Source of the DNA: Mycobacteriales bacterium
Lineage (GTDB): Bacteria; Actinomycetota; Actinomycetes; Mycobacteriales; CADCTP01
NCBI GenBank assembly: GCA_035995165.1
Contig: DASYKU010000048.1
Span: forward strand, 62,001 to 126,000
DNA: 64,000 nucleotides
Direction: 5' to 3'
Shown: piece after piece, positions 3,791 to 56,882 of the stretch
Position numbering within the stretch: position 1 is the first letter of the stretch
Layout: each line of letters starts with the position of its first letter
Position numbers and translations under genes: made by a program
Notes under the pieces: generated by a model
What the model was told of the DNA's origin: nothing
What the model saw: the letters and a program-made list of their open reading frames with translations, nothing else
The model's database searches: none

Positions 3791-5311
3791 ATGCCCAGCG
3801 AGACCCACCTCGGCGCGCTCGTCGAGTCGGCGTTCGAACGGCGCGGCGACGAGACGACGCTCGTGTACGAGGGCCGGCGCCTGTCCGCGGCCGAACGCCT
3901 CGACGCCGTCCGGCGGCTGACCGGCGGCCTGGTCGGTCTCGGTATCAGACCCGGCGAGCGGGTCGTCGTCTGCATGGCCAACGGACCCGAGGTCGAGGTC
4001 GCGTACGGGGCGATCTGGCGGGCCGGCGCGGTCGTCACCCCGGTGGTGTTCCTGCTCAGCGAGGCCGAGCTGCGGCACGTGCTGGCCGACTCCGGCGCGG
4101 TCGCCGTGATCACCTCACCCGAGCTGCTCGTCCGGGTGGCGCCGGCCGCGGCCGCGGCGCCGGCGGTCCGGCACGTCATCGTGGCCGGGGACGCGCCGGG
4201 CACGGTCCCGTACGCGGAGCTGGTCGCGGCCGACCCGCACCCGCTGGTGGACCGGAAGGCCGACGACCTCGGTGCGCTGATGTACACCGGTGGCACGACC
4301 GGCCGGGCCAAGGGCGTCATGCTCACCCACGGCAACCTCTGGTGGTGCGGGCGCTGCGCGTACGAGCGGGGCCGGGACACCTACGACGGCAAGTCGAGCC
4401 TGACCGCGTTGCCGCTGTCGCACGCGTTCGGGCTGATCGTGACGATCGTCGGGGCGTTCATCGAGGAGCAGCCCGGCCCGTCGGTGCTCATGCGCTGGTT
4501 CGAGCCGGCCGGCTGGCTGCGGCTCGCGGCCGAGCACCGGGTCAGCGGCGGCCAGCTGGTGCCCTCGATGCTCGCGCTGCTGCTGCAGCAGCCGCTGGAG
4601 GACCACGACCTGTCCGAGCTGCGGTACCTCAGTGTCGGGGCCGCGCCGCTGCCGGCCGCCGTCCGGGCCGAGTGGGAGAAGCGGGTGCCGGGGGCGGAGG
4701 TGCTGGAGGGGTACGGCTGCACCGAGTCCGGCGCGGTGATCTCCAGCTCGACGCTGGCGGACCGCCGGGCCGGGTCGGTCGGCCGCCCGCTCCCCCGCTA
4801 CGAGGTCCGGGTCGTCGACGACGCCGGCCGCGATGTCGCGGCGGGCGCGGACGGCGAGGTCTGGGCCCGCGGCCCGGGCGTGATGACCGGCTACTGGAAC
4901 GACCCGGAGACCACCGCCGGCACGCTGGCCGAGGGCTGGCTGCACACCGGCGACGTCGGCCACCTCGACGCCGACGGCTTCCTCTGGCTGGTCGACCGCA
5001 AGAAGGACCTCATCATCCGCAGCGGTGTGAACGTCTTCCCGCGCGACGTGGAGGAGGTCCTGCTGGAGCACCCGGGCATCGCCGCGGCGGCGGTCGTCGG
5101 CCGGCCCGATCCCGTCCGCGGCGAGGAGGTCGTCGCGTTCGTCGCGGCCCGCCCCGGGTCGATCCTGGACGCGGCCGAGGTCGAGGCGTTCGCGGCCGCC
5201 CGTCTCTCCGGCATCCACCGCCCGCACGACGTCCGCGTCGTCGACACCATCCCCGTCACCAGCGTCGGCAAGACCGACCGCAAGGCCCTCCGCAGCCGCC
5301 TGCTCCAGTGA
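3791..5311 (+). CDS. Acyl-CoA synthetase / AMP-dependent ligase
   Basis: A 506-residue ANL-superfamily adenylating enzyme. Motifs in order: P-loop YTGGTTGRAKG near residues 165-175, GYGCTESG near 313, GWLHTGDVG near 380, the hinge DRKKDLIIRSG near 401, and catalytic lysine ~493 in GKTDRK. It should activate a carboxylic acid as acyl-AMP and transfer it to CoA. Chain length and ring preference are not predictable; overall it looks like medium- or long-chain fatty acid or aryl acid ligases. The ATG at 3791 follows GGAGG with 5-base spacing; upstream in-frame starts lack a site. Confidence 0.92.
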   Translation: MPSETHLGALVESAFERRGDETTLVYEGRRLSAAERLDAVRRLTGGLVGLGIRPGERVVVCMANGPEVEVAYGAIWRAGAVVTPVVFLLSEAELRHVLADSGAVAVITSPELLVRVAPAAAAAPAVRHVIVAGDAPGTVPYAELVAADPHPLVDRKADDLGALMYTGGTTGRAKGVMLTHGNLWWCGRCAYERGRDTYDGKSSLTALPLSHAFGLIVTIVGAFIEEQPGPSVLMRWFEPAGWLRLAAEHRVSGGQLVPSMLALLLQQPLEDHDLSELRYLSVGAAPLPAAVRAEWEKRVPGAEVLEGYGCTESGAVISSSTLADRRAGSVGRPLPRYEVRVVDDAGRDVAAGADGEVWARGPGVMTGYWNDPETTAGTLAEGWLHTGDVGHLDADGFLWLVDRKKDLIIRSGVNVFPRDVEEVLLEHPGIAAAAVVGRPDPVRGEEVVAFVAARPGSILDAAEVEAFAAARLSGIHRPHDVRVVDTIPVTSVGKTDRKALRSRLLQ

Positions 5312-51927: not shown

Positions 51928-51996
51928 CGACTGTCCGGAGTGGACGACGCGGGAAGGAGGACGCACTCCCCGCCACTATCAACGTATAGCGCACCG

Positions 51997-52016
51997 GGGG
52001 GCTTGCGGCAAGACCC
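51997..52016 (+). promoter_or_regulatory. Rifamycin-associated element (RAE) upstream of helR
   Basis: GGGGCTTGCGGCAAGACCCG, with the perfect core dyad CTTGC-G-GCAAG, lies 56 bases before the helR start. As I recall it, the published RAE found before rifamycin-inactivating genes and helR in actinomycetes has this GGGGCTTGCGGCAAG core. It makes the downstream gene inducible by rifamycins. Position and sequence both fit; I could not check the consensus here. Confidence 0.82.
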
Positions 52017-52071
52017 GGGTCGTGCCGCAGAATCGGCCGCCGAAGCCATGACCTGCGGAAATAGGAGCGGC

Positions 52072-54219
52072 GTGACCCCCCTGACGACCACTGCGTTCGC
52101 GCTTCCCGACCGACTCGCGGCCAAGGCCGACCCGGCGCTCATCGCCGCCGACGAACTGCGCTTCGCGGCGATCGCGGAGAGCCTGGAGCAGTCGATCGCC
52201 GACCTGTCCGAGCGCCTCGACGCCGAACGCAGAGCGCCCGGCGGCAGCGGCCAGGAGGCGATGGACCGGGACCTGGAGATCCACCGGCTGACCGGGCGGC
52301 TGCGGGTGCTGCGCCGCTTCGGGCTGGACCTGTGTCTCGGCCGCATGGTCGGCGCGGACGGCACCGAGCCCGTGTACGTCGGGCGGCTCGGCCTCACCGA
52401 CAGCACCGGCCGCCGGCTGTTGCTCGACTGGCGCTCGCCCCTGGCCGAGCCGTTCTTCGGGGCGACGCACGCCAACCCGATGGGTCTGGACAGCCGCCGC
52501 CGGTACCGCTGGACCCTCGGCCGGATCAGCGACTACTGGGACGAGGTGTTCACCCCGGACGGGCTCGTCGGGCACGCCGCCCTGGACGACCAGTCCGCGT
52601 TCATCGCCAGCCTGGGCACCAACCGGTCCGGCCGGATGCGCGACGTGCTCGGCACCATCCAGGCCGACCAGGACGCGATCATCCGGGCGGGATCCCGCGG
52701 CGCGCTCGTGGTCGACGGCGGCCCCGGTACGGGCAAGACGGTCGTCGCCCTGCACCGCTCGGCCTACCTGATCTACTCCGATCCCCGCCTCGGCCACCAC
52801 CGCGGCGGCGTGCTGTTCGTCGGCCCGAGCCGACCGTACCTGGCGTACGTGGCCGACGTCCTGCCCGGCCTCGGCGAGGAGGGCGTGCAGACCTGCACCC
52901 TGCGCGACCTCGTTCCCGAGGGCGCCGCGGCGGCGGTCGAGACCGATCCGGAGGTGGCCCGGCTGAAGTCGTCGAAGCGGATGGTGTCCGCGATCGAGGC
53001 CGCCGTCCGCTTCTACGAGGAGCCGCCGGCCCGGGCCCTGACGGTGACGACCCCGTGGTCGGAGGTACGGCTGAGCGCGGCGGACTGGGCCGACGCGTTC
53101 ACCGCGCCGGGGCCGGGCACGCCGCACAACGAGGCGCGCGCGGAGATCGTGGCCGAGCTGGCGGAGATCCTGGTGGACGAGCTGGACGACGAGGACGTCT
53201 CGGCCGCCGAGCTCCGGACGGCGCTGCTGGCCGACCGGGAGCTGATGGCGACCCTGAACCGGGCCTGGCCGCTGCTGGACGCGGCCGACCTGGTCGGCGA
53301 TCTGTGGTCGGTGCCCGCCTACCTGCGTACGTGCGCGCCCTGGCTGAGTCCCGCGGAGATCCGGACGCTGCAGCGCCCCGGCGCCACGGCCTGGACGGCG
53401 GCCGACCTGCCGCTGCTGGACGCGGCCCGGCACCGGCTCGGCGACGCGGAGGCGGCCCGGCGCGCGCAGCGGCACGCGGCCACGGTCGCCGCCGAGCACG
53501 AGCACATGACCAGCGTGGTCGACGACCTGATCGCGGCCGACGACTCCGAGCTGCTGGTGATGTCGATGCTGCGCGGGGAGGACCTGCGCAACGCCCTGGA
53601 CGACGGGATCGCGCCGCCGAGCGCCGGGCCGGACCTGCTGGCCGGGCCGTTCGCGCACGTCGTCGTGGACGAGGCCCAGGAGCTGACCGACGCGGAGTGG
53701 CAGATGCTGCTGCTGCGCTGCCCGTCCCGCAGCTTCACCGTGGTCGGCGACCGCGCCCAGGCCCGGCACGGGTTCCCGGAGTCCTGGGCGGACCGGCTCG
53801 GGCGGGTCGGGCTGGACCGGATCACCCTGGCCTCGCTGAGCATCAACTACCGGACGCCGGAGGAGGTCATGGCCGAGGCCGCGCCGGTCATCCGGGCCGT
53901 CCTCCCGGACGCCAACGTGCCGACCTCGATCCGCGGCAGCGGCCTCCCGGTCGCACACGGGTCCGCGTCGGAGCTGCGCTCCGTTGTGGACGGTTGGCTG
54001 GCCACCGATGCCGAGGGGATCGCCTGTGTCATCGGCGATCCCGGCTTCCCGGCGACATCGCGGGTCCGGTCGCTGACCCCGGAACTGGCGAAGGGGCTGG
54101 AGTTCGACCTCGTCGTCCTCGTCGACCCCGCGGCGTTCGGGGAGGGCGTCGAGGGCGCGGTCGACCGGTACGTCGCGATGACCCGCGCCACCCGGCAACT
54201 CGTGATCCTCACGACGTAG
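52072..54219 (+). CDS. helR: HelR-like RNA polymerase recycling ATPase (UvrD/HelD family)
   Basis: A 715-residue superfamily 1 helicase-like ATPase. An N-terminal coiled region (SIADLSERLDAERR) is the part that enters the polymerase channel in HelD proteins. Walker A GGPGTGKT is near residues 217-224, Walker B HVVVDEAQEL near 531, SINYRTPEE near 593, and motif VI VAMTRATRQLVIL ends the protein. The length suits HelR, which displaces rifamycins from RNA polymerase and confers tolerance. The GTG follows AGGAG; the RAE just upstream strongly supports the HelR assignment over generic HelD. Confidence 0.9.
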   Translation: MTPLTTTAFALPDRLAAKADPALIAADELRFAAIAESLEQSIADLSERLDAERRAPGGSGQEAMDRDLEIHRLTGRLRVLRRFGLDLCLGRMVGADGTEPVYVGRLGLTDSTGRRLLLDWRSPLAEPFFGATHANPMGLDSRRRYRWTLGRISDYWDEVFTPDGLVGHAALDDQSAFIASLGTNRSGRMRDVLGTIQADQDAIIRAGSRGALVVDGGPGTGKTVVALHRSAYLIYSDPRLGHHRGGVLFVGPSRPYLAYVADVLPGLGEEGVQTCTLRDLVPEGAAAAVETDPEVARLKSSKRMVSAIEAAVRFYEEPPARALTVTTPWSEVRLSAADWADAFTAPGPGTPHNEARAEIVAELAEILVDELDDEDVSAAELRTALLADRELMATLNRAWPLLDAADLVGDLWSVPAYLRTCAPWLSPAEIRTLQRPGATAWTAADLPLLDAARHRLGDAEAARRAQRHAATVAAEHEHMTSVVDDLIAADDSELLVMSMLRGEDLRNALDDGIAPPSAGPDLLAGPFAHVVVDEAQELTDAEWQMLLLRCPSRSFTVVGDRAQARHGFPESWADRLGRVGLDRITLASLSINYRTPEEVMAEAAPVIRAVLPDANVPTSIRGSGLPVAHGSASELRSVVDGWLATDAEGIACVIGDPGFPATSRVRSLTPELAKGLEFDLVVLVDPAAFGEGVEGAVDRYVAMTRATRQLVILTT

Positions 54220-54280: not shown

Positions 54281-54736
54281 TCAGAGCGCCGGCAGGTCGA
54301 CCACGCCGTCGATGACCTCACCGGTGGCCTCGTCGACCGCGTGCACGCTCATGAACTGCTCGATGCCCGTGTCGGCGGCCTTGCTCATCGCCCGCACCCC
54401 GGTCGCGGTGGCCGTCACGTCCTGGGTGAAGAAGGGCGCGCCGTTGTCGGCCAGGGTGACCGTCCAGACGTGCCCGGTGGGCGTGTTGATCTCGAACTCC
54501 TCGCCCACGACCGGGCCGGGGCCGTCGTCGTCGTGCGCGGACTTCAGCGTCCAGCCGCTGCCGAGCGAGCCGGTGCCGCTGGTGGAGACCGCGGGGCCGA
54601 GCTTGCGGCCGCCGCCGTTGCCGCCGCCACCGCCGCCCTTGCCGCCCGAGGCGAACGCGGCCGGCGCCGCCAGCATGCTGAGCGCCACCGCTGCCGTCGC
54701 GGTGACCGCGGCCGCCGAGGACCAAGTGAGCTTCAC
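54281..54736 (-). CDS. Small secreted protein, unknown function
   Basis: A 151-residue exported protein: a signal peptide (KLTWSSAAAVTATAAVALSM) with an AFA-S cleavage site near residue 29, a Gly-rich spacer (GGKGGGGGGNGGG), then a ~100-residue beta-rich domain (GEEFEINTPTGHVWTVTLADN). No cysteines or catalytic signature. The region upstream (54737-54914) must contain promoters for this gene and for the divergent sigma factor; I see no clear hexamers in it. Confidence 0.7.
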   Translation of the reverse strand: MKLTWSSAAAVTATAAVALSMLAAPAAFASGGKGGGGGGNGGGRKLGPAVSTSGTGSLGSGWTLKSAHDDDGPGPVVGEEFEINTPTGHVWTVTLADNGAPFFTQDVTATATGVRAMSKAADTGIEQFMSVHAVDEATGEVIDGVVDLPAL

Positions 54737-54914
54737 GAGCTTTCTCCATTCGGTACGAAATCCCGGCCGGCTGCGATGGCGGCCGGGTGTGACGTCAGGA
54801 GATAGCGCGGTGGGTTACAGCACCCGGCCGTGTAACCCGGGGCCCTATTGGTTGATGATGAGGGCGTCGCGCGCGGGCGGACGCTGCCGTGGGCGGTGAA
54901 GGCGGAGGCGTCAG

Positions 54915-55481
54915 GTGCGGATCGCACGCCGGTCTGTTGATGAGGTGGGTGCGACGGACCAGGGTGGGTCGGTCCCCCGGCTGCGAGTCGTCTCGGGTGA
55001 GGCGTACTCGGGCTGGGAGGAGATCTACCGGGACAACGTCGACCGGCTCTTCCGGGTGATGTACGGCAAGGTCGGCAACCGGCCGGACGCGGAGGATCTC
55101 ACCGCCGAGGTGTTCCTCACCGCGCTGCGCCCGCTGCGGGTCTCGGCCAGCGTGGGCGAGGTGCGCGCCTATCTCCTGGCGACCGCCCGTACGGTGCTGG
55201 CCGCGCACTGGCGCCGGACGCTCGGCGTGCAGGTCACCACCCTCGACGACGAGCGGGTGGAGACGGTGTTCAGCGACGCGCCGCCGGAGGTGGACCAGAC
55301 GGCCCGGGCCGACGCCCTCCTGGACGCGCTGCCGGACCGGTACGGGACGATCCTTCGGCTGCGGTTCCTGGAGGGCCGCTCGGTGCAGGATGTCGCCGAC
55401 GTCATGGGGGTCACCGTGGGAAACGCGAAGGTGCTCCAGCACCGCGCCCTGCGCGCCGCGGCGAAGGCGGGGGTCCGGTGA
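54915..55481 (+). CDS. ECF-type RNA polymerase sigma factor
   Basis: A 188-residue group 4 sigma factor. Region 2 contains YRDNVDRLFRVMYGKVGNRPDAEDLTAEVF near residues 38-68 (core binding and -10 recognition) and region 4 contains LPDRYGTILRLRFLEG and QDVADVMGVTVGNAKVLQHRAL near 135-180 (-35 recognition). The stop overlaps the start of the Rieske gene, so that neighbour is translated with it; no zinc-type anti-sigma gene follows. The first ~25 residues are unusual, so a later start is possible. Confidence 0.88.
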   Translation: MRIARRSVDEVGATDQGGSVPRLRVVSGEAYSGWEEIYRDNVDRLFRVMYGKVGNRPDAEDLTAEVFLTALRPLRVSASVGEVRAYLLATARTVLAAHWRRTLGVQVTTLDDERVETVFSDAPPEVDQTARADALLDALPDRYGTILRLRFLEGRSVQDVADVMGVTVGNAKVLQHRALRAAAKAGVR

Positions 55482-56170
55482 TGGGCGGCGTGCGCAGGTT
55501 CGTCGAGGACCTGCTCGGGGATCGGCGGCCGCGACGGTTCCGGGTCCGCGACGAGGACCAGGCGGCGGAGCTCCGCGCGGCGATCGCGCTGCGGGCGGCC
55601 GGGCCGGCGGGCGACGAGGGACCCGGCGAGGAGTTCACCGCGGGTCTGCAGCAGCGGCTGGCGGCCCAGCTGGAGGCGGAGCCGGTCGAGGCTGCGCACC
55701 CGACCCGGCGCCGGTTCGTCCAGGCCGCGGGGATCGCGGCCGCGGGGGTCGCGGTCGGCGGCGTGGTCGACCACCTGCTGATCGGCCCCGCGGGCGTCGC
55801 GCCGGCGGCCGCGCCCGAGGACACCGGCACGCTGATGCCGAACACCGGGGTCTGGCGGCCGGTCGTCGCCAGCGCGGAGCTGCCCGAGGGCGGCGTGCAC
55901 GCCTTCGACGTCGGCACCCTGGTCGGCTTCGTGGAACGGACCGGCGGCAGGCTTCGGGCCGTGTCCGGCGTCTGCACCCACCAGGGCTGCCGGTTGGCCC
56001 TGGAACCCGCCGCCCGCGAGCTCGCCTGCCCCTGCCACCGGACGGTCTTCGCGCTGGCCGGCACCGTGGTCCGGTCCCAGCTGCGCACCCCGCCGGCCGT
56101 GCTCCCCCGGCTGCCCGTCCGCGAGGTCGACGGCAGCATCCAGGTGTACGCACCGCCGACGCCGACCTGA
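55481..56170 (+). CDS. Rieske [2Fe-2S] protein coupled to the sigma factor
   Basis: A 229-residue protein. The N-terminal ~75 residues are cytoplasmic and charged (VRRFVEDLLGDRRPRRF). A twin-arginine-like TRRRFVQAAG precedes a membrane helix near 80-97. The exported Rieske domain has cluster ligands in GVCTHQGC near 163-170 and CPCHRTVF near 185. GTG 55478 is an equally possible start. Being coupled to an ECF sigma gene, with a cytoplasmic head on one helix, it has the topology of a transmembrane anti-sigma factor with a redox sensor outside. Confidence 0.82.
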   Translation: MGGVRRFVEDLLGDRRPRRFRVRDEDQAAELRAAIALRAAGPAGDEGPGEEFTAGLQQRLAAQLEAEPVEAAHPTRRRFVQAAGIAAAGVAVGGVVDHLLIGPAGVAPAAAPEDTGTLMPNTGVWRPVVASAELPEGGVHAFDVGTLVGFVERTGGRLRAVSGVCTHQGCRLALEPAARELACPCHRTVFALAGTVVRSQLRTPPAVLPRLPVREVDGSIQVYAPPTPT

Positions 56171-56180
56171 CAATGACCGG

Positions 56181-56882
56181 GTGAGCCCCACCCCGCAGGC
56201 GGTCCTGTTCGACACGTTCGGCACGGTGGTCGACTGGCGGTCCGGGATCGCCACGGCCGTCTCCGAGCTGGCCGGACCGGTCGACCCGGCGGCCTTCGCC
56301 GACGCCTGGCGCGCGAAGTACCAGCCGTCGATGGAGCCCGTACGGTCCGGTCGCCGGCCGTTCGTCCGGCTCACCGACCTGCACCGGGAGAACCTCACCG
56401 CCACCCTGGCCGAGTTCGGCTGGGATCTCCCCGCGGCCGGGACCGAGCACCTCAACCGCGCCTGGGAGCGGCTGCCGGCCTGGCCGGACAGCGTCGACGG
56501 GCTCCGGCTGCTCAAGCAGCGCCACCTGATCGGGCCGCTGTCCAACGGCGACACCGCCCTGCTCGTCCGGATGGCCCGGCATGCCGGGCTGCCCTGGGAC
56601 GTGGTCGTGGGCTCCGACCTGCTGGGGCAGTACAAGCCGCACCCGGACGCCTACGCGCGGGCGGCCGCCGTCCTGGACCTGCCGCCGTCGGCGGTGATGC
56701 TGGTCGCCGCGCACAACAACGACCTGGCCGCCGCCCGCGCGGCCGGCCTGGCCACCGGCTTCCTCCCTCGCGCCGCGGAACACGGTCCGGGCCAGACCAC
56801 CGACCTGACCGCGGACGCGGACTGGGACGTCGTCGCGAACGATCTGGTCGATCTCGCGGCTCAGCTGAACAGCGCGCTGTAG
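56181..56882 (+). CDS. HAD-type haloacid dehalogenase-like hydrolase
   Basis: A 233-residue HAD enzyme of the L-2-haloacid dehalogenase type: nucleophile D11 in [17 protein letters not shown] near 119, Lys in YKPHPDAY near 155, and [15 protein letters not shown] near 177 for the acidic metal loop, where Asn-Asn-Asp replaces the usual Asp-Asp pattern, as in dehalogenases. It could remove halide from 2-haloacids; other substrates are possible. Its 3' end overlaps the ACC deaminase gene by 22 bases. Confidence 0.87.

Follow-up and report, generated by a model that had tools for sequence, protein, structure and literature searches.

A candidate Rieske-type anti-sigma factor translationally coupled to an extracytoplasmic function sigma factor in actinobacteria

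The Rieske cluster is known as an electron carrier. Why, then, should the gene of an exported Rieske protein be coupled to that of an extracytoplasmic function (ECF) sigma factor? This question is raised by a stretch of 64,000 nucleotides from a Mycobacteriales bacterium (assembly GCA_035995165.1, contig DASYKU010000048.1, positions 62,001 to 126,000), hereafter called the window. Judging from gene order and sequence comparison in about 140 related loci, the Rieske protein is very probably the anti-sigma factor of the coupled sigma factor. The explanation as a whole, in which a membrane-anchored Rieske anti-sigma factor senses conditions outside the cell and its sigma factor acts on promoters marked by a conserved DNA box, appears fairly probable to us, and the exported Rieske domain is slightly favoured as the sensor.

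The sigma factor and its membrane-anchored partner

The pair and the parts of the partner protein are as follows.

54915..55481, + strand, ECF sigma factor gene (188 aa; regions 2 and 4, above the Pfam cut-offs)
55481..56170, + strand, Rieske anti-sigma candidate gene (229 aa; sigma factor gene upstream in 80/80 named relatives)
55481..55690, + strand, cytoplasmic head, aa 1-70 (three predicted helices, 2-12, 25-40 and 50-65; proposed sigma-binding part)
55703..55795, + strand, twin-arginine signal and membrane anchor, aa 75-105 (TIGR01409)
55832..56167, + strand, exported Rieske [2Fe-2S] domain, aa 118-229 (PF00355, fold match)

The sigma factor scored above the Pfam cut-offs for Sigma70_r2, Sigma70_r4 and Sigma70_r4_2 (PF04542, 35.4 bits; PF08281, 43.2 bits). 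It consists of PF04542 and PF08281/PF04545 with no further domain, as is characteristic of ECF (group 4) sigma factors. The last base of its TGA stop codon (55479-55481) is also the first base of the ATG of the Rieske gene (55481), for which an alternative GTG start is present at 55478. The nearest NCBIfam equivalog is BldN (TIGR02952), with 71.2 bits against a curated cut-off of 206 bits, a score far too low for membership of the BldN family. The best PDB match was 6dxo chain A, which we take to be the BldN-RsbN complex.

For the 229-aa partner, AlphaFold2 predicted three head helices, a poorly defined anchor and a confident Rieske domain. The head harbours no Cys or His clusters, and in the alignment of relatives it is as strongly conserved as the remainder of the protein. 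The anchor sequence TRRRFVQAAGIAAAGVAVGGVVDHLL (aa 75-100) matches TIGR01409 with 18.2 bits (cut-off 16.7), and the two arginines are found ahead of the Rieske domain in 140/140 members. PF00355 was matched with 45.3 bits (cut-off 20.3) by a domain with the motifs CTHQGC and CPCH, which provide the ligands C165, H167, C183 and H186. Two extra cysteines, C170 and C185, are those of bc1-type Rieske proteins and are conserved. Since the predicted exported domain also matched solved Rieske proteins in a fold comparison, the family match, the CxHxGC and CxCH ligands and the fold all identify a Rieske [2Fe-2S] protein; the ligand motif is complete in the 140 Rieske members. The signal match and the model agree on a single anchor, with the head inside and the Rieske domain outside. 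The original prediction, made from the sequence alone, had claimed a sigma factor translationally coupled to a transmembrane Rieske protein with a cytoplasmic head, one helix and an exported [2Fe-2S] domain; both the coupling and the layout, with a head of about 70 aa, were confirmed.

The further suggestion of the original prediction, that the protein could be a redox-sensing anti-sigma factor, would fall if the protein were a standard quinol oxidase subunit required elsewhere. The protein shares the Rieske fold, the Cys/His ligands, the extra cysteines and export by twin-arginine translocation (Tat) with QcrA of the actinobacterial bc1-aa3 supercomplex. Unlike QcrA, it has one anchor, lacks the QcrA_N region, has no cytochrome b (qcrB) neighbour and is linked to a sigma factor. 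Because the genome has a separate ctaE-qcrC-qcrA-qcrB locus on a different contig, with a QcrA that contains the QcrA_N region, we conclude that the sigma-linked protein is not the subunit of bc1.

Linkage across actinobacteria and exchange of the exported domain

A scan of named genome contigs yielded 80 relatives, from Mycobacterium, Mycobacteroides, Mycolicibacterium, Nocardia, Streptomyces, Actinomadura, Actinoallomurus, Pseudonocardia, Pseudofrankia and Solihabitans. The sigma factor gene is located directly upstream in every one of them (broken in L052), and in 70/80 the stop and start codons overlap by 4 bp (ATGA/GTGA). This arrangement is not due to chance. A further search for the head covered samples of the phylum (296 genomes), the class (395), the order (399) and two families (24 and 297), which overlap and amount to about 1,300 genomes altogether. 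About 6-8% of the genomes sampled from the class, the order and the larger family had the head, compared to 1.4% of those sampled from the phylum. A sigma factor gene was adjacent in 143 of the 148 instances examined; the other five comprise one second tandem copy seen twice, a fragment after a cupredoxin gene, a contig end and a second copy 2 kb below a sigma factor gene of this kind. Within the sampled genomes, the head occurs only in sigma-linked loci of this kind. The window's genome contains no second head, although it has eight other Rieske matches, and the viral contigs searched contained no relative. A second pair in L031 was an assembly artefact, and head matches in L133-L135 were chance matches in LytR-type proteins.

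Some loci differ from the simple pair. In genome G926, two tandem head-Rieske genes follow one sigma factor gene (L140, 4756-6860), and a different contig has a cupredoxin gene followed immediately by a head fragment that stops at TAG (L141, about 4030-4470). A mobilizable Mycobacteroides abscessus plasmid carries a sigma-Rieske-cupredoxin-phosphoesterase cassette (L210; NC_021278.1, 107501-110632), in which the partner is annotated merely as 'Rieske (2Fe-2S) protein'.

In two genomes of one family (L127 and L129), the sigma factor, the overlap, the head and the anchor are kept, and the exported domain is a different one. It resembles the exterior of RskA-type anti-sigma factors, a weak likeness seen in one of the two (RskA_C, E 0.012). 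In a further genome, G1052, a 60-aa head-only open reading frame is coupled to the sigma factor gene (L162, 1389-4717). As the exterior is swapped or lost and the head persists, the head is the part that stays with the sigma factor. These cases are the best evidence in our analysis for the head as the putative sigma-binding part; they support an anti-sigma head with an exchangeable exterior, as far as gene comparisons can tell, and argue against a pure role in electron transfer. An RskA-like exterior together with sigma factor, head, overlap and box was also seen at L142 260-1521 (-) and L143 4056-5302 (-). In L162 the order is sigma factor, head-only frame, cupredoxin, phosphoesterase and membrane protein, with a head-Rieske gene 2 kb downstream that has CTHMAC in place of CTHxGC.

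The swap also bears on a second way of reading the protein, which we consider unlikely, namely an anti-sigma factor whose cluster serves as a checkpoint instead of sensing the outside. The head would then be altered, and the sigma factor freed, whenever the cluster is not assembled or Tat does not export the domain. Tat carries folded cofactor proteins, and export of only the loaded, folded domain would suit the arginine pair before every anchor and the intact ligands. However, a Rieske-less exterior occurs with the same sigma factor and DNA box in two genomes, and the partner genes encode exported redox and phosphoesterase proteins, not cluster-assembly proteins. Still less probable is an exported electron carrier that works with cupredoxin, with the sigma factor merely controlling the cassette and the head being no anti-sigma domain. 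Cupredoxin and phosphoesterase genes adjoin the pair in 68/80 named loci (two of the 68 have the phosphoesterase only) and the bc1-type cysteines are conserved, which speaks for such a carrier, yet the conserved head is absent from the genome's other Rieske proteins and persists without a Rieske domain, and the window's genome keeps the pair although it has no phosphoesterase homologue.

A DNA box in front of the pair and its neighbours

Bipartite words were counted upstream of 87 nonredundant sigma factor genes, with shuffles as control. The top motif, GTAAC and GGTG at 17 nt, was found in 19 genes, compared to at most 10 for any word in the shuffles. Inspection revealed a directional box, TGTAACCC-N6-cTA(T/C)(C/T), before the sigma operon and neighbouring exported-protein genes. 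[TG]GTAAC is present on the coding strand in 111/136 upstream regions, and TA follows exactly 15 nt on in 59/59 nonredundant TGTAAC sites; when all pair loci are taken together, TA lies 15 nt from the first T in 134/148 nonredundant TGTAACC sites. Of the 65 loci linked to cupredoxin, 59 have the box ahead of the sigma operon as well as ahead of the cupredoxin operon (0 in 40 shuffled loci). In L037 and L075, whose cupredoxin operon runs divergently, there is one box per direction, and on the L210 plasmid one box precedes the sigma factor gene and another the cupredoxin gene. In five Mycolicibacterium loci a DoxX gene comes before the sigma factor gene, and the box is located upstream of DoxX. 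The Actinomadura boxes are flanked on one side by a PAP2/haloperoxidase-like gene, the first of the sigma operon, and on the other by a divergent gene homologous to the exported-protein gene of the window, which is described below. The Rieske-less loci L127 and L129 also harbour the box.

Box matches were found in 18/20 genomes with the pair and in 3/20 without it (Fisher p 3.4e-6). The first count is partly expected because the sigma factor's own box is included. More telling is that, where the pair is absent, the box is no more frequent than chance would give, with 3 matches compared to 4 of the reversed pattern. The window contains the following elements.

54831..54849, + strand, box TGTAACCCGGGGCCCTATT facing the sigma-Rieske operon
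54801..54819, - strand, box TGTAACCCACCGCGCTATC facing the divergent exported-protein gene
54281..54736, - strand, exported protein, 151 aa, no Pfam family (box in front; predicted sole outside target)

The 5.37-Mb genome has no full box besides these two, which stand back to back in the 178-bp interval between the sigma factor gene and the divergent gene. The reversed control pattern had no match in this genome. As only two boxes exist genome-wide, the predicted targets are the sigma-Rieske operon and the divergent gene. In L102, L055, L071 and L077, homologues of the exported protein are located beside the pair, each with a box directed at it. The minus-strand box of L055 has the sequence CGTAAC.

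The original prediction had called for a search for the sigma factor's own -35 and -10 elements. A candidate ECF-like -35, TGTAACC, was found, and the -10 is weak. The same sequence is the -35 of ECF16 promoters, with the consensus tGTAACc-N16-CGAA (PMC3420878). ECF16 sigma factors, paired with NrsF/OsrA in the oxidant response of Caulobacter, Bradyrhizobium and Brucella, further resemble the system predicted here in a small regulon that includes the sigma factor itself and, in Brucella, a divergent small exported-type gene (PMC8315932, PMC3420878). In contrast, NrsF/OsrA anti-sigma factors have six membrane helices and sense through thiols, the -10 is CGAA, and the hosts belong to another phylum. 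The box was not assigned to the ECF16 promoter class, as a weak GGTGA takes the place of the -10 and the spacer TA is invariant. Sites of Brucella BcrS contain CCTATC before GCGAA (PMC8315932). A -10 at TATC, which would leave a spacer of nine bases, was judged sterically unlikely. That the box is instead the operator of another regulator controlling the locus is improbable: the invariant TA, nearer to the first T than canonical -35/-10 spacing, and the weak -10 would fit, but the box is directional, its TGTAACC equals a published -35 (PMC3420878), it stays at chance level in the 20 genomes without the pair, and the loci have no other recurrent gene for a DNA-binding protein.

Proposed mechanism, known systems and neighbouring genes

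In the mechanism we favour, the three-helix head would hold the sigma factor at the membrane at rest, and translational coupling would keep the two proteins balanced. The Rieske domain would receive its cluster inside the cell, be exported by Tat and then report outside conditions when the cluster is oxidized or damaged or meets a redox partner. Such a change may cause the head to let go of the sigma factor, either because the protein changes shape or because the anchor is cut by regulated proteolysis. Once free, the sigma factor would transcribe from the boxes its own operon and very few exported-protein genes, which would be the one divergent gene in the window and, in relatives, cupredoxin and phosphoesterase, a PAP2/haloperoxidase-like enzyme, or DoxX. 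For the redox-sensing anti-sigma factor of the original prediction, the anti-sigma half is well supported by comparison, through the coupled exclusive linkage, the persistence of the head and the private box; redox gating is what we infer, and the intact ligands would be consistent with it.

Several results weigh against this explanation. Comparison of the head with RsbN profiles gave no detectable homology (hhalign P 0.05 to 0.8), the head alone had no fold match in the PDB that would tie it to class III, and its model alone reached a pLDDT of 67, which is only moderate. Tandem or separate extra copies in some members are not needed by a simple one-to-one pair. At the canonical -10 distance there is only the weak GGTGA, and the presumed spacer contains the nearly invariant TA(T/C)(C/T). 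Mirror-tree and mean-field direct coupling analysis of sigma factor and head (effective number of sequences about 45) favoured the pair at first; as this signal vanished when Rieske-less members were dropped and representatives used, coevolution was not counted as support. Sigma binding is suggested indirectly, by the linkage, the domain swap and the box, and a role of the cluster's redox state is hypothetical.

Among known systems, BldN-RsbN of Streptomyces is similar in its sigma factor (BldN being nearest in both NCBIfam and the PDB), in an adjoining single-anchor membrane partner and in a three-helix, zinc-free head. The -35 of BldN, CGTAAC, is related to that of the box. Here, however, the sigma factor scores far under the BldN cut-off, the head is without detectable homology to RsbN, the exterior is a Rieske domain and the partner is translationally coupled. 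The three-helix head of class III (RsbN) is seen in the predicted models with moderate confidence. RskA/RseA-type (class I) anti-sigma factors likewise have a cytoplasmic head, one anchor and an exported sensor domain, and the L127 exterior is weakly like RskA_C. In contrast to these, our protein has three head helices, a Rieske exterior and a Tat signal. Assignment to the class I zinc anti-sigma factors (ZAS) was rejected, since HxxxCxxC is absent from the head alignment and just 2/148 heads contain any Cys. The literature search found no paper that joins Rieske proteins to ECF anti-sigma factors; it did not extend to key ECF classification papers or to supplementary tables of ECF groups, where a mention is possible.

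More tentatively, these proteins may constitute an anti-sigma class with a high-potential Rieske cluster outside the cell, whose redox state sets sigma release. The exported cupredoxin, a predicted target in many species, could form a feedback loop by exchanging electrons with the cluster. In sequence, the head would be unrelated to known anti-sigma classes, and the exteriors would be exchangeable. If so, a Rieske cluster would be the outside sensor of a transcription switch, in a system that spans mycobacteria, Nocardia, Streptomyces, Actinomadura and Frankia relatives plus one plasmid. The specificity of the box (two copies in 5.4 Mb) makes the regulon, the signal and sigma binding directly testable, and cluster-ligand mutants offer a clean test of redox gating.

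Downstream of the pair, a haloacid dehalogenase type II gene without homologue in the related loci (56181-56882, +) begins 10 bp past the Rieske stop codon and is possibly in the same transcript. On the other side, the gene of the RNA polymerase recycling ATPase HelR (51940-54219, +; NF041254, 1260 bits) ends just before the divergent exported-protein gene. In loci that lack cupredoxin, the pair repeatedly has an exported PAP2/vanadium-haloperoxidase-like enzyme as a neighbour (L055 2112-3368, L169 4609-5871, L140 2209-3819 and L143 1-912).
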